Origin: an uncultured Eubacteriales bacterium
GTDB taxonomy: Bacteria; Bacillota; Clostridia; Peptostreptococcales; Anaerovoracaceae
Direction: 5' to 3'
Assembly: GCA_900315895.1 (NCBI GenBank)
Contig: ONAY01000007.1
Coordinates: forward strand, 1 to 56,929
DNA length: 56,929 nt
Part shown: piece by piece, positions 46,612-56,592 of the stretch
Numbering within the stretch: the first letter of the stretch is position 1
How the letters are laid out: each line of letters begins with the position of its first letter
Translations under genes and position numbers: made by a program
The notes under the pieces: generated by a model
Databases searched by the model: none
The model's input: the letters and a program-made list of their open reading frames with translations, nothing else
Told to the model about the DNA's origin: nothing

Positions 46612-47178
46612 ATGAGGATAGTAGCGGGAGAATTCAAGGGAAGAAGGATAGAGACCCCTAAGGGATACGATGTAAGGCCTACAACCGAGAAGGTGAAGGA
46701 GGCTCTGTTCAGCATGCTCAGCAACCTTATGGAGGACAGCACGTGCTGCGACCTGTTTTCGGGGACCGGCAATCTGGGGCTGGAGGCCATATCAAGAGGG
46801 GCTGAGCGCTGTATTTTTTGCGATAATTCAGGAGAGAGCGTAAGGCTCATCAGGAAGAATATAGAATACTGCAGGGCGACTGATCGGGCGGTACTCATAC
46901 CGGGAGGCTTCGAGAAGTGTCTCAAAAAGATGGATGAAGAGGGCCTGAAGGCAGATATTTTCTTCCTGGATCCACCTTATAGGGAAGGTCTCTACGAAAG
47001 GTGTCTTGAACTCATAAGGGACCTGGAGCTTTTGAAGGAGGGCGGTGTCATCGTATGCGAGCACGCAAGAAATGACAGCTTCCCGGGTGTTTTTTGCGGC
47101 TTTGGGAAGTATAAAGAGAAAAACTACGGTTCCATAACGCTTTCTCTGTACGCCACCAAAAGTAGTTGTTCAGAATAG
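46612..47178 (+). CDS. rsmD: 16S rRNA (guanine966-N2)-methyltransferase
   Basis: A 188-residue methyltransferase: MRIVAGEFKGRRIETPKG start, RPTTEKVKEALF, the SAM-binding DLFSGTGNLGLEA, and the catalytic LDPPY. It methylates G966 of 16S rRNA. coaD, its usual follower, is 8.9 kb away. Confidence 0.93.
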   Translation: MRIVAGEFKGRRIETPKGYDVRPTTEKVKEALFSMLSNLMEDSTCCDLFSGTGNLGLEAISRGAERCIFCDNSGESVRLIRKNIEYCRATDRAVLIPGGFEKCLKKMDEEGLKADIFFLDPPYREGLYERCLELIRDLELLKEGGVIVCEHARNDSFPGVFCGFGKYKEKNYGSITLSLYATKSSCSE

Positions 47179-47194
47179 GTATATGTGTTATAAT
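47166..47194 (+). promoter_or_regulatory. Promoter of the surface-glycan cassette
   Basis: TTGTTC, 17 bp, perfect TATAAT (47189-47194) with extended -10 TGT. It overlaps the end of rsmD and precedes the glycosyltransferase ATG at 47234. Confidence 0.65.
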
Positions 47195-47233
47195 TTAATA
47201 TCTTTAATTGTGCGTTGAATTATTGAGTGTTCT

Positions 47234-48307
47234 ATGAATATTTTGTTCGTATCGTGCGGGAATGCGGATTACGACGGACGCCTGAGAGAACTGTTGAAGG
47301 TATCCAGAGAACTGGGCGAAGTCACCTGCTATTCCTACGGGTCAGAGAGTCTTTTCCCGGGACATCATGTCTATGGAGATGACGTTGGCTATATAAAATT
47401 CATCAGGAATGTGTGCCGCGAAGCAAAGAAATGTGACGCGGATGTTGTGTTTGTAGATAACCGCAGAGCCACCATACCTGCCATGCTGATCAATTGGAAG
47501 AAAAAAGCTTTTCTCATCCTGGACTGCAGAGAGTTGTATGAGGCCAGCCAGTTCACGGAACTATATAACAAGTTCGGGTGTTGGGCTGAAAAAACCTGCG
47601 CAAGGAAGGCAGACGTCCTGATCTGTGCCAATTCTTTCAGAGCGGACTACATGGAGAAAAAATGGAAGGTCAGACGTCCTCTTGTGTTTGAAAACATAAG
47701 AAGACTGGAATACGACGAAGACAAGATAGATGATGCAGCCGCACTGATAGACCCGGTCCTCGGTGGCGATGAGATACGTATTGTATCAACTTACGGCTGC
47801 AGCATCGACCGGACCAATGATGTTTTGGTGAGAAACATCAATAAGATACAGGGGAACGTCAGGTTGTTCCTCGTCGGGACGTCAAGCAAGGAAGACGAGG
47901 AAACCATAAGAGGTATCATTAAAGATCAGGGTGCTGAGGATAAGGTCGTCATATTAAGACAAATGAATCAGACAGAACTGAAATATCTCTTAAGCAGATC
48001 CCATATAGGCGTAGTCAACTACAACCGAAAGGATCTGAACAACGAGTACTGCGCCTCCGGCAAGATATACGAATTTCTTTTCGAGGGCCTGCCCGTAATC
48101 ACCACATCCAATCCGCCTCTGAAAAAAATCTGCGAGGAGTATGGGGTTGGGGAATCCGATGATGAGTATTTTAACGGTATAAACCGACTAATTGAGAGTT
48201 ACGATAAATATAAGGCGTGTGCTGAGGCCTTTGCTGAAAGCCACGATGTAAGCGACAGCAACCTGGAATTGTACGAGAGCTTAAAAGGGGAGTTAGCAGC
48301 ATTATGA
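47234..48307 (+). CDS. Glycosyltransferase (GT4-like)
   Basis: A 357-residue protein with a GT-B-like two-domain layout: N-terminal MNILFVSCGNADYDGRLREL, and a C-terminal nucleotide-sugar domain ending in SGKIYEFLFEGLPVITT with the E-x7-E-like region. It should add a sugar to a lipid-linked glycan intermediate; the sugar cannot be told. No signal or membrane segment. First gene of the cassette; it overlaps the Wzy gene by 4 bases. Confidence 0.8.
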   Translation: MNILFVSCGNADYDGRLRELLKVSRELGEVTCYSYGSESLFPGHHVYGDDVGYIKFIRNVCREAKKCDADVVFVDNRRATIPAMLINWKKKAFLILDCRELYEASQFTELYNKFGCWAEKTCARKADVLICANSFRADYMEKKWKVRRPLVFENIRRLEYDEDKIDDAAALIDPVLGGDEIRIVSTYGCSIDRTNDVLVRNINKIQGNVRLFLVGTSSKEDEETIRGIIKDQGAEDKVVILRQMNQTELKYLLSRSHIGVVNYNRKDLNNEYCASGKIYEFLFEGLPVITTSNPPLKKICEEYGVGESDDEYFNGINRLIESYDKYKACAEAFAESHDVSDSNLELYESLKGELAAL

Positions 48308-49758
48308 AATTAACATTCAATTACAAAAAGATTCTGGCGGCCGTTGGGGCATTCCTGTTCATTTCGCCAGACCTCAACATTATTGAGTCGATTCTGACAT
48401 ACTGCGGAATTGGGAATCATGACGTGGTGAAGTATGCAGCCATTGCCATATTCGCGATCATGGATCTTCTTTTGGTAATAGCCTTCTTCAAGGCCAAGCC
48501 CAGCCGCAGAATGTTCATAGTACTGATCATCTTTAACGTGATCTATATTTTGCCTCAGGTCCTGAACAGAGACGCCACTGCCATTATGCAGTATTGCCTG
48601 TTTACGGTACCCACCACTGTGGCGACCATCATGCTTACTGGAGATGAGGAGATACATAAACTGTTCTTCAAGTATCTGGGGATCTTGGTGAAGGTCGCTC
48701 TTATTGCGGCACTTCTTTACATCTATCTTCTCTACTTCGGCACTAACCGCAGAGAAAACGGTATGCTGATAATCGAGAATATGAGCTATGGAGACATGGC
48801 GTATCTGTTCGTTTCCGGTTTTATTGTCTCCCTCCTGGAGGTAATGGAGGAAAAGAGCAAGATTGGGTATTTTGCTTTAGTGGTATTCTCACTGGCTGTC
48901 CTTTTTGCAGGTGCCAGATCCGCCATTCTCTGCATAGTCGGCGCACTGATCCTTCATTGGCTCATGCTGTTCATCTCAAGGCCAGAGAAGAAAAAGTATC
49001 TCAAAATGCTCATCGTTACAGCCCTGACGGCAGCCACGCTTGTGGGAGGAATGTATATCCTGCCTGAAGGGTCGAGGTTTGATCTTGTAAACATTGACAT
49101 CAGTACCATCGAATTTGATGATCCATCCGAAGCCTTGATATTTGAGAACAGATATACCCACTCTAGGATCAACGGGGTCGCGGTACTGTATGTCCCCACC
49201 GGTAAAGAGATGAGCATATATGATGCTTTCTACAAGGAAGTTGTCAAGAATGACAGAACGAAGAAGGAAACCGAGGAGATCCTCCGTGAGGATATAAAGA
49301 ACCGTACCGGTGAATACATAATCGTTCTCAACGAAGATGACTGGGAATACGGTTGCTATTATTCTCTGCCCAACTACAGGACATTCCTTTGGAAAGCAGC
49401 GAAGGCAGAATACAAAAAGAATCCCATTTTCGGAAACGGTCCGCTGTATTTCAAGAATAAATACTCCGGATACTTCCCACACAACATCTTCCTGGAAGCC
49501 ATGACAGACTTCGGAATCGTGGGAACGGTCCTGCTTGCGTTGCTTGCATTGTTCTGCTTCATCAAAGGAATGGCGTACTTCTGGAAGAAGAAGGAGTCCA
49601 CCGTGCTCAGGATGAACGTACTGTTGTTCTCCAAGATGCCGAGATATTTGTTGTACACCACCTTGTACAGCACTGCTTCTCTGGCAATGACCGTAATCTA
49701 TTATCTAACGCTGGGATGGCTGGCTAAGGATGAGAAACAAGATAAGGAAACTGCTTGA
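48304..49758 (+). CDS. O-antigen-polymerase-like membrane protein (Wzy-like)
   Basis: A 484-residue protein with about ten membrane helices, a cluster at 12-250, a large external loop at about 255-395 and final helices after 400. PHNIFLEAMTDFGIVG in the late part is the conserved patch of Wzy/WaaL-type proteins. It would polymerise repeat units outside the membrane. Family sequence similarity is low by nature; context supports the call. Overlaps the flippase gene by 29 bases. Confidence 0.7.
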   Translation: MKLTFNYKKILAAVGAFLFISPDLNIIESILTYCGIGNHDVVKYAAIAIFAIMDLLLVIAFFKAKPSRRMFIVLIIFNVIYILPQVLNRDATAIMQYCLFTVPTTVATIMLTGDEEIHKLFFKYLGILVKVALIAALLYIYLLYFGTNRRENGMLIIENMSYGDMAYLFVSGFIVSLLEVMEEKSKIGYFALVVFSLAVLFAGARSAILCIVGALILHWLMLFISRPEKKKYLKMLIVTALTAATLVGGMYILPEGSRFDLVNIDISTIEFDDPSEALIFENRYTHSRINGVAVLYVPTGKEMSIYDAFYKEVVKNDRTKKETEEILREDIKNRTGEYIIVLNEDDWEYGCYYSLPNYRTFLWKAAKAEYKKNPIFGNGPLYFKNKYSGYFPHNIFLEAMTDFGIVGTVLLALLALFCFIKGMAYFWKKKESTVLRMNVLLFSKMPRYLLYTTLYSTASLAMTVIYYLTLGWLAKDEKQDKETA

Positions 49759-51184
49759 CAAATACAATAGCCTGCCTGTGCAGGCCAAAGCCGGCTTTTG
49801 GTTTCTAGTCTGCACCGTTGTGCAAAGATCCATCACGATAATAACGACACCGATATTCACACGAATGCTTTCAGAGCCTGAATACGGTGAATACGGTGTC
49901 TTTATCTCGTGGATGGGCATATTGTCGTGCTTTGTCACGATGTTCATTTTTTCCGGAATCTACCCGCAGGCCATAGTGAAACATGAAGAGGAGAAGGACG
50001 TATACTCTTCATCGATGCAAGGATTGACAATAACCCTTGTCATTTTCTGGTGCATTATTTATCTTTTAGGGCGCACTTTCTGGAATGACATTTTCTTTCT
50101 GAACACCATTGAATTGATTGCCATGTTCGTGGTGATGTGGGGCAATGCTGCATTCGGATTCTGGTCCGCAGAAAAAAGGATAGCTTACAAGTACAAGTCT
50201 CTGCTGGCTGTCACTCTTACTGAAGCCATAATGCAGCCTGTGCTCAGCATAGTCCTGATATCATATTTCCCCAATAAGGTCAACGGCCTGGTCTGGGGAA
50301 TAGCCATAGCAAATCTGGTCTGCTATTCGCCGCTTTTCGTATCCCAGATGCTGAAGGGAAAGCAGTTCTTTTCGAGCAAAATATGGAAGTATTCTCTGGG
50401 ACTGGCCATACCTTTGATCCCTCACTATCTATCCTCAGTGGTGCTGAACAGCTCTGACAGGATCATGATTCAGAAGATAGTTGGAGAGGGACCTGCGGGA
50501 ATATATAACCTTGCATATACAATTTCGATCTGTGGAACCATAATAAATCAGGCTCTCCTTCAGACCATTCAGCCCTGGGTATATACCAAGATCAAGGAGG
50601 AACGGTACGAAGACTTAAAGAGGGTGGTATATCCTGCCTTGATCGTCATTGGATGCGTTAACCTTCTGGTAATTCTTATATCGCCTGAACTTATCAAGAT
50701 ATTCGCTCCACCGGCCTATTACGATGCGGTCTGGGTAATGCCGCCAATATCGTTGAGCGTTTATTACATGTTCACATTCAACCTGTTCGCATGCTTCGAG
50801 TTTTACTTCGAGAAGCCCGGTTATGTATCTGCGGCCACATTTACAGGCGCCGGCCTGAACGTGGTTTTGAATTACATATTCATCAAGATGTTCGGATACG
50901 TTGCTGCAGGTTATACGACACTCATATGTTACTTCGTGTTCTGCGTGGCACACTACTGCTTCATGCGGATCATCCTTAAGCAGGAAAATATCACTGAGAA
51001 GGTGTACAGCCTGAAGGTGCTCACACTTATTTCAGTGGCAGTGACGGCATGCGGTTTTGTCATCATGTTGACATATAATTACCCGTATGTCAGATATGGC
51101 CTGATCGCAGTGGTCCTCATAGCTTGCCTGATAGAAAGAAAGAGGATCAAGGGGTACGTGCTGAGAATAATGGGACGTGAATGA
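49730..51184 (+). CDS. Wzx-like polysaccharide flippase (MOP superfamily)
   Basis: A 484-residue protein with about 12-14 membrane helices. The N-terminal AGFWFLVCTVVQRSITIIT and TPIFTRMLSEPEYGEYGVF are typical of the RfbX/MATE-like flippases. It moves the lipid-linked repeat unit across the membrane. It starts inside the Wzy gene and is followed by licD. Confidence 0.85.
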   Translation: MRNKIRKLLDKYNSLPVQAKAGFWFLVCTVVQRSITIITTPIFTRMLSEPEYGEYGVFISWMGILSCFVTMFIFSGIYPQAIVKHEEEKDVYSSSMQGLTITLVIFWCIIYLLGRTFWNDIFFLNTIELIAMFVVMWGNAAFGFWSAEKRIAYKYKSLLAVTLTEAIMQPVLSIVLISYFPNKVNGLVWGIAIANLVCYSPLFVSQMLKGKQFFSSKIWKYSLGLAIPLIPHYLSSVVLNSSDRIMIQKIVGEGPAGIYNLAYTISICGTIINQALLQTIQPWVYTKIKEERYEDLKRVVYPALIVIGCVNLLVILISPELIKIFAPPAYYDAVWVMPPISLSVYYMFTFNLFACFEFYFEKPGYVSAATFTGAGLNVVLNYIFIKMFGYVAAGYTTLICYFVFCVAHYCFMRIILKQENITEKVYSLKVLTLISVAVTACGFVIMLTYNYPYVRYGLIAVVLIACLIERKRIKGYVLRIMGRE

Positions 51185-51198
51185 GGAAAGGAACCATC

Positions 51199-52002
51199 AT
51201 GAGAGAAGTAAGTTCTGATGAACAGAAAAAGGTCCTCCTGGATATACTGATCGATATCGACAGAGTCTGCCGGGAAAATGATATCGGCTATTCCATCGCT
51301 TATGGCACTTTGCTGGGAGCGGTGAGACACGGTGGTTTTATCCCTTGGGATGATGATATAGATATTATCGTTACCAGGGAAGACTACACCAAAATGAAAA
51401 GGATCATGAATGATAAACTGAACGATGATCACTATTTCGTTTGTGTCGAAGATGAAAAAAGGTTTTCAGCGCCTCTGGCAAAAGTAATCGACAAGAATAC
51501 GGTGCTGGTTCAGCAGGGGCATTATTCCGATAGGATGGATCTTGGGATTTACATCGATATTTTTACTTATGACTTCATTCCCAACGATTTAGAAAAGAGA
51601 AACAAGGTATACAAAAAATCTGTTTTCCTGCAGAATCTCTGGACCTTTGCGGGAAATAACACGGATAATTACAATAAATTGATCCGTTTTGCAAGGAGCA
51701 TTGCCAACAAGACCAGCATTGCGAGACGCACAGCTCTGTATATGCATAAGTGGGCGGAGAAATTGGATCATGACAGCGACTTAATGTCACCGCTGACATA
51801 TGGAAATTTGGTAAGAGAGAGGGACCTCATGGAATATCGTGACCTGGTTGACTTGGCTGAATACAAGTTCGAAGGCCATAAATTCCTGGGGATAAGAGAT
51901 TACGATAAATATCTGACCTTGTGGTATGGCGACTACATGAAACTGCCGCCTGAGAATGAGCGGGTCAGTGGACATGACACATTGGTATACTGGAAAGAGT
52001 AA
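51199..52002 (+). CDS. LicD-family phosphotransferase
   Basis: A 267-residue protein with the LicD signature YGTLLGAVRHGGFIPWDDDID. LicD enzymes transfer phosphocholine or similar phosphorylated groups from a CDP carrier to glycans. ATG 51199 follows AAAGGA and gives the usual N-terminus; an ATG at 51181 overlapping the previous stop is an alternative. It lies directly before a nucleotidyltransferase fusion that could make the CDP-bound donor. Confidence 0.88.
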   Translation: MREVSSDEQKKVLLDILIDIDRVCRENDIGYSIAYGTLLGAVRHGGFIPWDDDIDIIVTREDYTKMKRIMNDKLNDDHYFVCVEDEKRFSAPLAKVIDKNTVLVQQGHYSDRMDLGIYIDIFTYDFIPNDLEKRNKVYKKSVFLQNLWTFAGNNTDNYNKLIRFARSIANKTSIARRTALYMHKWAEKLDHDSDLMSPLTYGNLVRERDLMEYRDLVDLAEYKFEGHKFLGIRDYDKYLTLWYGDYMKLPPENERVSGHDTLVYWKE

Positions 52003-52027
52003 TAGATATTACTGAGAGGTGACTGTA

Positions 52028-53845
52028 ATGCAGGCAATCATTTTAGCAGCAGGCATGGGCAAAAGGTTAAAAGAGCTCACCAAGGACAACACTAAATGCA
52101 TGGTCAAAGTAAACGGAGTGACTCTCATCGATAGGATGCTTCATCAGATCGACGCTCACGACTTATCCAGGATCGTCATCGTTGTGGGATATGAAGGCGG
52201 TAAGCTTATTGACTACATATCCACCCTTGACATTAAAACTCCCATCGTTTTCATAGAGAATCCAATCTATGACAAGACGAACAACATCTATTCCCTGGCA
52301 CTGGCCAAGGAGCAACTCCGTGAAGATGATACACTTCTTTTCGAGTCCGATCTTATCTTTGAGGACGCGGTGCTGGATGAACTTGTCAACGATCCAAGTG
52401 AGACTCTGGCGCTGGTGGATAAATATGAATCCTGGATGGACGGGACATGCGTCAAGCTTTCGGAGGATGATGAAATAGAGGCCTTCATTCCCGGCAAGAA
52501 GTTTAAGTTTTCCGAGATCAAGGACTATTACAAAACAGTCAATATCTACAAGTTCAGCAAAGAATTCTCTGACACATGCTACGTCCCGTTTTTGGACGCA
52601 TACCAGTCCGCACTGGGACTTAATGAGTATTACGAGCAGGTACTTAGGGTTATCACAATGCTGGACACCTCGGGGATCAAGGCGAAACGTCTTACCGGTC
52701 AGAAGTGGTATGAGATCGATGACATCCAGGACCTGGACATCGCTGAATCCATTTTCTCACCGGACGAGGATGAGAGAGTCAAACTTCTTCAGGGCAGATA
52801 TGGCGGATACTGGAGATATCCTAAACTTCTTGATTTCTGCTATCTGGTGAATCCATATTTCCCAAATCAAAAGATGAAAGACGAATTACGTGCCAGCTTT
52901 GATACTTTGCTCACTGAGTATCCCAGCGGCATGAGAGTCAACTCGCTCCTCGCCGCAAAAAACTTCGGAGTGCATCAGGAAAACATCCTGGTGGGAAACG
53001 GAGCTGCAGAGCTCATCAAGTCCCTCATGAGTTTTCTGGACGGACGTACTGGATTCGTCAGGCCCACCTTCGATGAGTATCCCAACAGGTACGATAGAGA
53101 AGAATCAGTGGATTTCATTCCCGATAACAGAGACTATTCATATACTGCGGATGACCTTATGACGTTCTTCGGCGACAAGGATGTTCATAATCTGATCGTG
53201 GTCAACCCCGATAATCCCAGCGGCAACTATATCCCGGTCAAAGATCTTCTCAGGCTTGTGGATTGGGCAGGAGAGAAGAAGATCAGACTTGTTATTGACG
53301 AGTCTTTTGCGGACTTCTCGGATGAACTCAATAACACTTTGATCAGGCAGGATGTTCTGGATGCAAATCCACACCTTTTCGTGATGAAGAGTATCTCGAA
53401 ATCCTACGGTGTGCCGGGACTGCGTTTGGGGGTTCTCGCTTCCGGAGATGAAGAGATCATCGCCCGCATGAAGAAGGACGTGGCCATCTGGAACATAAAC
53501 TCTTTCGGCGAGTTTTACATGCAGATCGAGGAGAAGTATAAGAAGGACTACGAGGCGGCTTTAGTAAAGATCAGAGCTGAACGCGCAAGATTCCAGGACG
53601 AATTGGCAAAGATCAATGGCGTGCGCGTAATTCCCTCACAGGCCAATTATGTCATGGTAGAGTTGGAGGAATACATTTCCCCCAAGGAGCTGCTTAAAAA
53701 GTTACTCATCAAGTATGAATTGCTGATCAAGGAACTGACGACAAAAACCAACGGGAGAAATTATCTGCGCCTTGCAGTCAGGAATAATGTGGATAACGAT
53801 GTGCTCATCAAGGCACTGAAAGAAGAATTGGGTGAGCGGGACTAA
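52028..53845 (+). CDS. Fusion of a LicC-like cytidylyltransferase and a CobD/HisC-like PLP enzyme
   Basis: A 605-residue protein. Residues 1 to about 235 are a sugar/choline-phosphate nucleotidyltransferase domain (MQAIILAAGMGKRLKEL; TKCMVKVNG; DLIFEDA), like LicC. Residues from about 245 to the end are a fold-type I PLP enzyme with VGNGAAELIK, NPDNPSGNY, DESFADF and the PLP lysine Lys458 in SISKSYGVPGLRLG, like CobD (threonine-phosphate decarboxylase) or HisC. The fusion suggests one protein makes an amino-alcohol phosphate and loads it on CMP. As I recall, Campylobacter capsule loci have related decarboxylase/cytidylyltransferase pairs for CDP-ethanolamine or CDP-serinol. The substrate here is undetermined. 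ATG 52028 with GAGAGG upstream. Confidence 0.82.
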   Translation: MQAIILAAGMGKRLKELTKDNTKCMVKVNGVTLIDRMLHQIDAHDLSRIVIVVGYEGGKLIDYISTLDIKTPIVFIENPIYDKTNNIYSLALAKEQLREDDTLLFESDLIFEDAVLDELVNDPSETLALVDKYESWMDGTCVKLSEDDEIEAFIPGKKFKFSEIKDYYKTVNIYKFSKEFSDTCYVPFLDAYQSALGLNEYYEQVLRVITMLDTSGIKAKRLTGQKWYEIDDIQDLDIAESIFSPDEDERVKLLQGRYGGYWRYPKLLDFCYLVNPYFPNQKMKDELRASFDTLLTEYPSGMRVNSLLAAKNFGVHQENILVGNGAAELIKSLMSFLDGRTGFVRPTFDEYPNRYDREESVDFIPDNRDYSYTADDLMTFFGDKDVHNLIVVNPDNPSGNYIPVKDLLRLVDWAGEKKIRLVIDESFADFSDELNNTLIRQDVLDANPHLFVMKSISKSYGVPGLRLGVLASGDEEIIARMKKDVAIWNINSFGEFYMQIEEKYKKDYEAALVKIRAERARFQDELAKINGVRVIPSQANYVMVELEEYISPKELLKKLLIKYELLIKELTTKTNGRNYLRLAVRNNVDNDVLIKALKEELGERD

Positions 53846-53846
53846 A

Positions 53847-54926
53847 ATGAAGATCACGATAGTCGGCGGCGGCAACATAGGAACACAGTTTGCTGTGCAT
53901 TGTGCGGAGAAAAAGCATGATGTGACAGTATACACTTCAGCGCCGGATCTTTTCAGCGATATGCTGAGCACCGTTGATGAGTTAGGAAACGTTACGCATG
54001 AAGGAAGGATAGCTTGCGCCACGAAGGATCCGGAGAAAGCGTTTGCAGAAGCTGATTATATAATCATCACGTTGCCGTCCACAATGATGGATAGCATCGC
54101 TGAAACGATTTATCAGTATTCTTCCAAGGAGGCCGTCATAGGCGTTGTGCCCGGGAATGGCGGCAGCGAATGCGCTTTTAAAAGATGCATCGAAAGAGGC
54201 AATGCATTTTTCGAGATAGAACGGGTTCCGGCGATCGCTCGTCTTGTGCAGAAAGGTAAAACAGTCAGATCGACCGGGTATCGAAATGAATTGCACATTG
54301 TCGCAACTCCTTCCGAAAACGCCGGTGAGATCTGTGACGTTATCTCTTCGATATTTGAGATCCCCTGCAGACCGATCTCCAATTATCTCAACTTGACGTT
54401 AACGCCGTCAAATCCCATAGTTCACACCACCAGGCTTTACACCTTGTTTAGAGACTATAAGGAAGGCGTGACATATGAAAGCGTGCCTTTGTTCTATGAA
54501 GGATGGGATGATGCCTCGTCTGAGATGCTCTTGTCCTGTGATGAAGAGGTGCAAAAGATCTGCAAGGCATTGCCGGAAATTGATCTTTCGTCAGTCAAAT
54601 CTTTGAAAGATTACTACGAGAGCTACACTGTTTCAGACATGACTAAAAAGATATCCGGGATCCCTGCCTTTAAGGGGTTATCGACGCCTGCGGTCAAAGT
54701 AGACGGAGGATATATCCCTGATCTGCATTCGAGGTTTTTTACTGCGGATTTCTCTTATGGGCTGACATTGATCAAGCATGTCGCGGATTTTGCGGGAGTC
54801 AGTGTTCCAAACATAGATAAAGTTATGCAATGGTATGAAAACATTGCAATCGAAAAGAAAGCGTTCGCATATTCCAATTACGGAATAAACAGCAAACAGG
54901 ATCTCATAGATTTTTACAACAGATGA
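53847..54926 (+). CDS. Opine (octopine/nopaline) dehydrogenase-like NAD(P) enzyme
   Basis: A 359-residue protein: N-terminal Rossmann fold MKITIVGGGNIGTQFAVHCA (GGGNIG), then PGNGGSECAF, and a C-terminal domain with LNLTLTPSNPIVHTTRL, where the Asn/His region matches the Octopine_DH family. Known members condense an amino acid with a keto acid reductively. In a glycan cassette it might make an opine-like substituent. It starts 1 base after the fusion gene and its stop overlaps wecB. Confidence 0.8.
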   Translation: MKITIVGGGNIGTQFAVHCAEKKHDVTVYTSAPDLFSDMLSTVDELGNVTHEGRIACATKDPEKAFAEADYIIITLPSTMMDSIAETIYQYSSKEAVIGVVPGNGGSECAFKRCIERGNAFFEIERVPAIARLVQKGKTVRSTGYRNELHIVATPSENAGEICDVISSIFEIPCRPISNYLNLTLTPSNPIVHTTRLYTLFRDYKEGVTYESVPLFYEGWDDASSEMLLSCDEEVQKICKALPEIDLSSVKSLKDYYESYTVSDMTKKISGIPAFKGLSTPAVKVDGGYIPDLHSRFFTADFSYGLTLIKHVADFAGVSVPNIDKVMQWYENIAIEKKAFAYSNYGINSKQDLIDFYNR

Positions 54927-56053
54927 TCATGAAAAAGAAAATCCTTACAGTCTTCGGGACGCGTCCCGAAGCCATTAAAATGTGTCCTCTCATCAACGAG
55001 ATGAAAAAGCGCGAAGGCCTTGAAGTGGTAGTATGCGTCACCGCTCAACACCGTCAGATGCTGGATCAGGTCTTGGAGACATTCGGAGTCGTTCCGGATT
55101 ACGACCTGAACATCATGAAGGACCGCCAGACTCTGTTCGACATTACCACCAATATCCTGAACAACATCAAGGCTGTTCTGGATGAGGTCAAACCTGACGT
55201 AGTGCTTGTCCACGGCGATACCAGTACCACATTCGTGACTGCGCTTGCATGCTTCTATTTGCAGATCCCCGTGGGTCACGTGGAAGCCGGCCTCAGGACA
55301 TATGACATTTATTCTCCGTTCCCGGAGGAATTCAACCGTCAGGGTGTGGGGATAATAAGCAAGTATAACTTTGCGCCAACACAGCTGGCGGCGGATCACC
55401 TGATCAAAGAGGGAAAGGATCCTTCAACGATCTATATCACAGGAAATACAGTCATCGATGCCATGCAGCATACGGTGAAGGCCGACTATACCCACCCGGA
55501 ACTGGATTGGGTAGGGGACGGCAAGCTGATATTTATCACTGCTCACAGAAGAGAAAATCTGGGAGAGCCCATGCATCATATGTTCAGGGCCATCAGAAGG
55601 GTCCTCGACGAGCATCCGGAGTGCAAGGCAGTGTATCCAATCCATATGAATCCGGTGGTACGTCAGGCGGCTGAGGAGGAACTGGGAGATTGCGATCAGA
55701 TCCACCTCATTGAACCCATTGAAGTGTTCGATTGCCATAACTTCGAGGCCAGATGTCATCTCTGCCTCACCGATTCAGGTGGCATCCAGGAAGAATGTCC
55801 GTCGTATGGCAGACCGGTTCTGGTAATGAGAAATACCACAGAGAGACCCGAGGGCGTAGAGGCGGGAACCCTTCGTCTGGTGGGGACCGACGAAGAGACC
55901 ATCTACCGCAACTTTAAGGATCTTCTTGAAAATCCGGAGGCCTATGAAGCCATGTCCCACGCCTGTAATCCTTATGGAGACGGCCATGCAAGTGAGCGTA
56001 TAGCGGATATTTTGGAAAAAGGCACTTACGATCCCTGGGTGGCAAAACGGTAA
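54923..56053 (+). CDS. wecB: UDP-N-acetylglucosamine 2-epimerase (non-hydrolysing)
   Basis: A 376-residue protein: KILTVFGTRPEAIKMCPL, HGDTSTTFVTALACFY, GHVEAGLRTYD, FITAHRRENLG, and LTDSGGIQEECPSYGRPVLVMR. It interconverts UDP-GlcNAc and UDP-ManNAc, supplying ManNAc for surface polymers. The ATG overlaps the previous stop; a second ATG lies two codons later. Confidence 0.93.
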   Translation: MIMKKKILTVFGTRPEAIKMCPLINEMKKREGLEVVVCVTAQHRQMLDQVLETFGVVPDYDLNIMKDRQTLFDITTNILNNIKAVLDEVKPDVVLVHGDTSTTFVTALACFYLQIPVGHVEAGLRTYDIYSPFPEEFNRQGVGIISKYNFAPTQLAADHLIKEGKDPSTIYITGNTVIDAMQHTVKADYTHPELDWVGDGKLIFITAHRRENLGEPMHHMFRAIRRVLDEHPECKAVYPIHMNPVVRQAAEEELGDCDQIHLIEPIEVFDCHNFEARCHLCLTDSGGIQEECPSYGRPVLVMRNTTERPEGVEAGTLRLVGTDEETIYRNFKDLLENPEAYEAMSHACNPYGDGHASERIADILEKGTYDPWVAKR

Positions 56054-56055
56054 TC

Positions 56056-56084
56056 TTTACAATAATAGCCGTTTGTGGTAAAAT
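56056..56084 (+). promoter_or_regulatory. coaD promoter
   Basis: TTTACA, 17 bp, TAAAAT with extended -10 TGG, both boxes 5 of 6. It lies immediately after the wecB stop and restores independent expression of coaD beyond the glycan cassette. Confidence 0.78.
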
Positions 56085-56106
56085 ACTGAGGATTATGGAG
56101 GTGGGC

Positions 56107-56592
56107 ATGCATACTAGAGCGCTTTATGCCGGATCCTTTGATCCCATGACATTGGGCCATGTGGACGTTATAAAGAGGGCATCCAAGATCTTTGACGAAC
56201 TTACTGTGCTGGTCACGGTAAATCTTGCCAAGGAATCTCTTTTTTCGTATGAGGAGAGGGAAGAGATGATAAAGGAGGTCCTGGGGGACCTTCCCAATGT
56301 TTCAGTGGACAGATGCGACGGGCTTCTGGCGGATTATGTCAATAGCCACGGATTCGATGTGGTGGTGAGAGGGCTGAGAAACACAGCTGATTTTGACCAG
56401 GAACTGGCCATGGATCAGCTTCACAAGCATCTCTATGATCACTGCGAGACCATCTACATAATTAGTGAGGACAGGTACGGATTCATCAGCTCCAGCATGG
56501 CCAAGCAGGTCATTTCCCTGGGCGGCGACGGAACTGTGCTTGTACCCGAGCCTGTACTTAAGAGAATGAGAATGAAATACGGCCTTGAGTGA
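56107..56592 (+). CDS. coaD: Phosphopantetheine adenylyltransferase
   Basis: A 161-residue protein with AGSFDPMTLGHVDVI (the T/HxGH nucleotide site), VVRGLRNTADFDQEL and the ISSSMAKQV end motif. It makes dephospho-CoA from phosphopantetheine and ATP. ATG 56107 follows GGAGG by 5 bases and fits the family N-terminus better than the upstream ATG at 56095. Confidence 0.94.
   Translation: MHTRALYAGSFDPMTLGHVDVIKRASKIFDELTVLVTVNLAKESLFSYEEREEMIKEVLGDLPNVSVDRCDGLLADYVNSHGFDVVVRGLRNTADFDQELAMDQLHKHLYDHCETIYIISEDRYGFISSSMAKQVISLGGDGTVLVPEPVLKRMRMKYGLE

Follow-up and report, generated by a model that had tools for sequence, protein, structure and literature searches.

A LicD, cytidylyltransferase-pyridoxal phosphate fusion and opine-dehydrogenase-family cassette that may place a modified phosphoethanolamine on a bacterial glycan

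Described systems and the proposed route

In the lic phosphocholine system (LicC/LicD), a small phospho-alcohol is activated as its cytidine diphosphate (CDP) derivative and then handed on by a LicD transferase. Both elements recur in a three-gene cassette at positions 51,199-54,926 of contig ONAY01000007.1 (assembly GCA_900315895.1), which comes from an uncultured Eubacteriales bacterium of the Anaerovoracaceae and of which a stretch of 56,929 nucleotides, here called the window, was analysed. Three intact, consecutive open reading frames (ORFs), all on the plus strand, encode a LicD-family phosphotransferase, a fusion of a cytidylyltransferase with a pyridoxal phosphate (PLP) enzyme, and an opine-dehydrogenase-family reductase (ODH). 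Unlike in the lic system, the substrate is predicted to be made de novo, an extra reductase for the amine is present, and the choline kinase profile PF01633 has no match anywhere in the genome, which is 87% complete (APH-type kinases were not searched). An earlier, sequence-only reading of this DNA had already noted the lack of a choline kinase and of a choline transporter and judged the transferred group probably not phosphocholine; the lack of the kinase holds genome-wide for PF01633 (transporters were not searched across the genome), and a phosphocholine route was rejected on the absence of this family.

Several other systems share parts of the cassette. SMUL_1544 (6oux), from norcobamide biosynthesis in Sulfurospirillum multivorans, is the closest solved relative of the PLP half, and we take its reaction to be the conversion of L-serine phosphate to ethanolamine phosphate, the product predicted here. 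It is described in passages of PMC7755780 as a stand-alone protein of a cobamide gene cluster, whereas the present enzyme is fused to a cytidylyltransferase and found in glycan loci. In PntC-AEPT (Tde1415; 6pd1/6pd2) of Treponema denticola, an N-terminal LicC-like cytidylyltransferase is joined to a PLP enzyme making the aminoethyl substrate, and LicD-type genes lie near (PMC6697681). For the capsule of Campylobacter jejuni, the PLP enzymes Cj1436 and Cj1437 make ethanolamine phosphate or serinol phosphate; there, however, the amine is amide-bonded and then dephosphorylated, and the relevant passages of PMC11800397 describe no CDP activation of it. Octopine dehydrogenase and CENDH (3c7a, 1bg6) share with ODH the family and the catalytic His, Asp and Arg, although the amine predicted for ODH is not a free amino acid. 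Finally, enterobacterial polysaccharides contain N-[(R)-1-carboxyethyl]ethanolamine phosphate, reportedly in P. mirabilis O14; this is the same kind of substituent as the one predicted here, in an unrelated host and likened by product only. Because this compound is listed in a legend or glossary for Klebsiella capsules and P. mirabilis O-polysaccharides in PMC9630907, the predicted type of product exists in nature.

We propose, with a probability slightly above one half (about 0.54), that the cassette makes a modified, N-carboxyalkylated phosphoethanolamine from phosphoserine and attaches it to a glycan. The PLP half would decarboxylate L-serine O-phosphate, an intermediate of serine biosynthesis, to phosphoethanolamine, which the cytidylyltransferase half would combine with cytidine triphosphate (CTP) to CDP-ethanolamine without an ethanolamine kinase. 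Either before or after this activation, ODH would condense the primary amine with an alpha-keto acid, for which pyruvate is the default guess, and reduce the imine, leaving an N-(1-carboxyalkyl) group; LicD would then place the phospho-substituent on the glycan that the neighbouring glycosyltransferase, Wzy, Wzx and WecB proteins build. The sequences themselves show the domain composition, the nearest relatives, the conserved catalytic residues of ODH, the co-occurrence of the genes and the insertion of the island. Each reaction, as well as the keto acid, the order of steps and the acceptor sugar, is what we infer from the sequences. The synthesis-activation-transfer route seen by the sequence-only reading is thus supported in outline, and its list of candidate groups (phosphoethanolamine, phosphoserinol or an opine-like amine) can be sharpened: phosphoethanolamine is favoured as the core, which ODH would then N-carboxyalkylate.

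The fusion enzyme and its substrate

The fusion comprises 605 residues (52028-53845) from its better start, ATG 52028, which is preceded by gagaggtga. Both domains reported earlier are present, with their order corrected: in Pfam, NTP_transf_3 covers residues 6-125 and Aminotran_1_2 residues 318-600 (numbering from GTG 52019), so that the N-terminal domain is the cytidylyltransferase and the C-terminal one the PLP enzyme. Scanning a single genome from each of 84,980 species gave 542 relatives of the fusion, and all locus counts given here rest on the best 80 of these; two loci, L042 and L056, come from one genome, and many locus flanks end at contig ends. Identity of these 80 in their best segment is 71-85%, nearly all of them match over the full length, and their record titles name Lachnospiraceae, Oscillospiraceae/Ruminococcaceae, Erysipelotrichaceae, Coriobacteriales, Saccharofermentans and Treponema, with rumen and gut as a common origin.

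In phmmer searches, the best solved relative of the PLP half is 6oux (E 1.8e-45), deposited as 'Structure of SMUL_1544, a decarboxylase'; Salmonella CobD reaches 8.4e-29. A 40-row tree gathers the 20 fusion domains into a single group (100/98), and a 99/99 branch unites them with 6oux, apart from CobD 1lc5, HisC 8bj1 and 15 CobD/HisC-like proteins of relatives. The tree is midpoint-rooted, the 6oux row is fairly long (1.46), and besides the 20 fusion rows it includes 15 of 19 loci of relatives, those in minus orientation or without a match having been removed, but not Cj1436 and Cj1437. Furthermore, 6oux is the top single-domain chain and the second Foldseek match overall (E 1.5e-27) for the AlphaFold model (mean predicted local distance difference test score 87.8). 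The first match is the two-domain PntC-AEPT 6pd2, at a root-mean-square deviation of 21.5, the two domains not superposing as one body. The predicted Schiff-base lysine, Lys458 (from ATG 52028), is invariant in all 25 aligned fusions.

Scores against neither named family reach their cut-offs (CobD TIGR01140, 172.6 bits against 290.55; HisC TIGR01141, 145 bits against 276.55). HisC function, the outcome that the sequence-only reading had regarded as fatal to its proposal, was rejected by the placement of the PLP half apart from HisC 8bj1 in the tree. The PLP half is therefore best described as a predicted L-serine-phosphate decarboxylase, neither HisC nor ordinary CobD. Its precursor is available: of 24 genomes, namely those of 23 of the 80 loci and the window's own, 21 score above the SerC cut-off, the window's among them.

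A different CDP-amino alcohol, either CDP-serinol by transamination of dihydroxyacetone phosphate or CDP-1-amino-2-propanol from L-threonine phosphate, could be made by the same fusion, with ODH and LicD acting as proposed above. This is unlikely in our view. The passages of PMC11800397 on the C. jejuni capsule do show both options in use, Cj1437 for (S)-serinol phosphate and Cj1436 for ethanolamine phosphate, and the fusion scores higher against the threonine-phosphate family CobD than against HisC; the CobD score nevertheless stays far under its cut-off, the tree groups the PLP half with SMUL_1544 rather than CobD, and an operon for aminoethylphosphonate (AEP) described below (L126) implies that the partner of ODH is a bare aminoethyl group.

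The cytidylyltransferase half is closest to PntC 6pd1 (phmmer E 4.6e-17) and LicC 1jyk (E 1.9e-12). Residues E109, Y205 and E206 (GTG numbering) are kept in 79/79, 78/79 and 78/79 fusions, respectively (n=79: the fusion ORF of L059 was missed by ORF calling, and the fusion of L093 is split into two ORFs). E109 and E206 match the Glu pair of PntC at the AEP amine, the match of E206 requiring a one-residue shift relative to the automatic alignment. For LicC, a choline site with two Asp residues and a Trp-containing box was the term of comparison, the Trp residues of the box being those that we assume to form it; the fusion has Glu/Glu, Tyr for one Trp and no second Trp, and the test is a weak one, as the cytidylyltransferase of the L126 operon keeps these Trp residues. 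The placement of the two Glu residues of PntC in contact with the amine, and the naming of Asp105, Asp192 and an aromatic box for choline in LicC, are both found in PMC6697681. A clean residue test for choline against a primary amine failed, since the LicC-like neighbours and the L126 enzyme follow no clean rule, and the residues suggest, weakly, a small primary amine.

The reductase, its partners and the aminoethylphosphonate operon

ODH starts preferably at ATG 53847 and matches Octopine_DH (PF02317, E 6.9e-31, 107.7 bits) behind a glycerol-3-phosphate-dehydrogenase-type Rossmann domain (PF01210); it is the sole PF02317 match in the window's genome. Its closest solved relatives by phmmer are octopine dehydrogenase 3c7a (E 1.9e-27) and CENDH 1bg6 (E 1.7e-11). 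H198, R301 and D306 (numbering from GTG 53832) are conserved in all rows with a letter at these positions (His 34/34, Arg 33/33, Asp 33/33), which places the protein in the opine dehydrogenase family by domain, His-Asp dyad and Arg; the dyad Asp of octopine dehydrogenase is, as we assume, position 329. The dyad, His212 and Arg324 are described for that enzyme in PMC2924402. The reaction predicted for ODH is to condense an amine reductively with a keto acid. Relatives of it encoded in polysaccharide and phosphonate loci share 30-66% identity with the window's enzyme. The third member of the cassette, LicD (51199-52002, with gaggaaagg 5' of its start), matches PF04991 over cut-off and along the whole profile (1-227 of 227; E 8.6e-44, 150.7 bits) and is the only such match in the genome. 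All three genes score above the Pfam cut-offs, which confirms the families assigned to them by the sequence-only reading.

The reductase gene lies close to the fusion in 27 of the 80 loci: in 23 it follows immediately downstream in the same orientation, in three it is the next gene upstream and in one it is four genes upstream (its row in L056 is truncated). LicD is also present in 17 of the 27, so that the three genes, whose recurrence elsewhere the sequence-only reading had made decisive for its proposal, stand together in 17 of the 80 loci. Among 391 class genomes drawn evenly, the window's own excluded, the fusion was found in 11 (E <= 1e-120), a close ODH in seven and both in three, where they are adjacent in every case (hypergeometric p 5.5e-4); the even draw and the 80 loci overlap in part and are not independent samples, as at least five of the drawn genomes (G181, G240, G288, G339 and G410) are apparently the same as L091, L054, L030, L095 and L068.

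Other genes take a similar position. An ornithine cyclodeaminase/ketimine-reductase-family (OCD) gene is near the fusion in 14 of the 80 loci, one of which also has ODH (membership by Pfam for L021 and L093, by clustering for the others), an ATP-grasp ligase in two, and any of the three in 42. GNAT acetyltransferases stand beside the fusion in L061 and L086, and a methyltransferase directly 3' of it in L132. Eight of the 11 fusion genomes of the even draw have an amine-type neighbour (three ODH, three OCD, one ATP-grasp, one methyltransferase). These recurring, potentially amine-acting neighbours are suggestive only, their families having many other functions.

The most direct pointer to the amine comes from the exchange of the fusion for a phosphonate pathway. 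In genome G419, the operon L126 reads LicD-ODH-Ppd-AEP transaminase-PepM-cytidylyltransferase, which makes up a complete AEP pathway, with no other amine supply and no sugar-modifying gene; its Ppd, AEP transaminase and PepM are over the NCBIfam cut-offs. The ODH of this operon is 48% identical to the window's and falls in a 23-row tree group with 22 fusion-linked ODHs (100/98). In L158, from a genome of the same order (G1018), an ODH 57% identical to that of L126 stands in the arrangement LicD-ODH-fusion. Of 248 genomes of the order, five have ODH: in four it is beside the fusion (one fusion being cut by a contig end; the ODH of L159, hidden by an antisense ORF in ORF calling, was placed by this search), and the fifth is L126 itself. 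No second AEP operon with ODH was found among these 248 genomes, and a search of 398 genomes of the phylum for further ODHs of the AEP-operon type gave only the window's genome and G245. Because the same reductase accompanies AEP in L126 and the fusion elsewhere, the simplest reading is that the fusion would supply the phosphate analogue of AEP, phosphoethanolamine.

A closer tie to phosphonates is conceivable: the PLP half might transaminate phosphonoacetaldehyde (or handle phosphonoalanine), the other half then making the cytidine monophosphate ester of AEP as in T. denticola PntC-AEPT. We regard this as quite improbable, even though the architecture matches 6pd2 and nine of the 80 loci have PepM or Ppd in the flanks retrieved. 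The PLP domain of PntC-AEPT is class V and belongs to a phosphonate cluster (PMC6697681, as above), whereas that of the fusion is class I/II: it matches Aminotran_1_2 and gives no PF00266 match at E <= 0.01. PepM (PF13714) has no match in the window's genome (G000, 87% complete) and is over cut-off in only five of 26 ODH genomes and three of 13 OCD genomes, many of them metagenome-assembled; phosphonate as a requirement was rejected on these absences. In L083, the order is PepM protein, alcohol-dehydrogenase-like gene (by eye), Ppd, which suggests that a hydroxyethyl product and not AEP is made at this locus. This locus is one of six (L080, L083, L092, L094, L098 and L099) in which the fusion lies amid repeated sulfatase-family genes (LtaS-like reading) and a PepM protein carries two nucleotidyltransferase-type domains.

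Alternatively, ODH could serve a separate path, towards an opine-like acid or an amino sugar, while the fusion and LicD place plain phosphoethanolamine. We hold this to be rather unlikely. As ODH occurs in only 27 of the 80 loci, the fusion evidently works without it, and an amino sugar bearing alanopine and a uronic acid bearing carboxyethyl-lysine are known (PMC10609480). On the other hand, ODH adjoins the fusion in 26 of the 27 loci that have it, the same subclade appears in the L126 AEP-LicD operon with no sugar-modifying gene, and Pfam identified nothing in the island around the cassette as a ligase for an amide-linked opine.

Several observations weigh against the route from phosphoserine to a carboxyalkylated phosphoethanolamine. 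The prediction for the PLP half depends on the reported action of SMUL_1544 on L-serine phosphate, and the AEP operon is a single genome. Among the LicC-like controls, Glu is carried in five of six in the E109 column and four of six in the E206 column, and the L126 cytidylyltransferase retains the LicC-type Trp residues. In L050 and L051 the fusion is immediately 3' of Ppd, with PepM upstream in L050, and none of the 80 loci has a gene related to the L126 AEP transaminase; the PLP half might act as a phosphonoacetaldehyde transaminase in these two. No gene for ODH, OCD or ATP-grasp is seen in 38 of the 80 loci and no LicD-like ORF in 52 (by hidden Markov model; L059 has one by tblastn), in both cases partly owing to contig ends, and some loci carry a sulfatase-family gene (LtaS-like reading) or a CDP-glycerol glycerophosphotransferase relative instead of LicD. 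Finally, four of the seven ODH genomes of the even draw lack the fusion at E <= 1e-120: that of L126, G245, G189 and G399. The G189 enzyme, kin to the fusion-linked ODHs (97/88), lies near DegT aminotransferase and FdtA/acetyltransferase genes in an amino-sugar-like setting, which also favours a separate path for ODH, and no amine supply was recognised near the G399 ODH.

In G189 (L127:7749-12598), ODH and Wzx stand beside an FdtA/acetyltransferase fusion and the DegT aminotransferase, without the cytidylyltransferase-PLP fusion gene. In G245 (L129:3883-11932), the order is LicD-LicD-class V PLP-OCD-ODH-[TagD-like cytidylyltransferase/GFO/IDH fusion]-small ORF-Stealth phosphotransferase, which may be a third way of providing these reductases with their substrate.

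The glycan island and the wider family

The three genes belong to a unit larger than the sequence-only reading had described, a seven-gene polysaccharide operon of overlapping or closely spaced genes, glycosyltransferase-Wzy-Wzx-LicD-fusion-ODH-WecB (47234-56053; Table 1). This polysaccharide unit is an insertion between rsmD and coaD, because these genes are adjacent in most congeners and 8.9 kb of DNA of lower G+C content (45.9% against 49.5% for the remaining window) separates them here. RsmD immediately precedes coaD in five of six congeners (G001-G005) and also in G008, G010 and G017, which belong to different genera within the family; G006, the remaining congener, has the two about 1.3 kb apart. 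Among the matches listed for 60 relatives, none spans both halves of the fusion.

Table 1. Features of the glycan island and its borders in the window
Feature	Coordinates	Strand	Basis or remark
rsmD	46612-47178		Left neighbour of island
Glycan island	47179..56094	+	Inserted between rsmD and coaD
Glycosyltransferase (group 1)	47234..48307	+	Pfam PF00534 over cut-off
Wzy/O-antigen-ligase-like polymerase	48304..49758	+	Pfam PF04932 over cut-off; overlaps glycosyltransferase gene by 4 bp
Wzx-like flippase	49730..51184	+	Pfam PF01943 over cut-off
LicD-family phosphotransferase	51199..52002	+	Pfam PF04991; alternative ATG 51181
Fusion, N-terminal half: LicC/PntC-type cytidylyltransferase	52028..52795	+	phmmer; boundary approximate
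Fusion, C-terminal half: PLP domain, predicted L-serine-phosphate decarboxylase	52796..53845	+	SMUL_1544 (6oux) branch; boundary approximate
ODH, opine-dehydrogenase-family reductase	53847..54926	+	PF02317
WecB-type UDP-GlcNAc 2-epimerase	54923..56053	+	TIGR00236, 499 bits against cut-off 210
coaD	56095-56592		Right neighbour of island

Single loci add further neighbours of the fusion. A scan of viral contigs gave one relative (L102:4317-9359), on the phage contig IMGVR_UViG_3300025009_000162 with a phage DNA polymerase (phrog_262), where a methyltransferase, the fusion (51% identical), a GFO/IDH oxidoreductase, an alcohol-dehydrogenase-like gene (by eye) and LicD form a row. A flagellin gene is immediately 5' of the fusion in L063:875-2719, and an MptE-like gene is 3' of it in L087 (family call) and L095 (clustering), both perhaps linked to flagellin glycosylation. 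In L061:11996-14755, a choline-binding-repeat protein (PF21540) directly 3' of the fusion might bind the product, and in L096:9277-9900 a cytidylate-kinase-like gene immediately 5' possibly contributes to CTP supply. A 136-residue ornithine cyclodeaminase-family remnant 3' of the fusion in L022:11901-12311 suggests loss of a tailoring gene. In L130:9444-12554, a TIR/ThsB-TIR-like protein of 1036 residues with beta-propeller-type matches adjoins the fusion divergently.

A more general picture can be offered tentatively, at somewhat less than even odds. One fused enzyme, present on a phage contig and distributed among gut Bacillota and Spirochaetota by gene transfer, would convert phosphoserine to CDP-ethanolamine, a shared building block. 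Interchangeable neighbours (opine dehydrogenase, ketimine reductase, ATP-grasp ligase, methyltransferase, acetyltransferase) would then vary the amine of this compound before the group is passed on to glycans, flagellin or polymers of the teichoic type; the PepM-Ppd-AEP transaminase set would be an exchangeable supply for the same tailoring enzyme.

Among the literature matches listed, none concerns this fusion or the ODH-LicD route, and none names genes for substituents of the N-(carboxyalkyl)phosphoethanolamine type. If the proposal holds, the fusion would lead from a central metabolite to the CDP-ethanolamine used for surface glycans in a single polypeptide and without a kinase, and the cassette would supply candidate genes for these substituents. 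It would also serve as a sequence marker for a surface chemistry of many rumen and gut bacteria, one that likely shapes their recognition by phages and the immune system.

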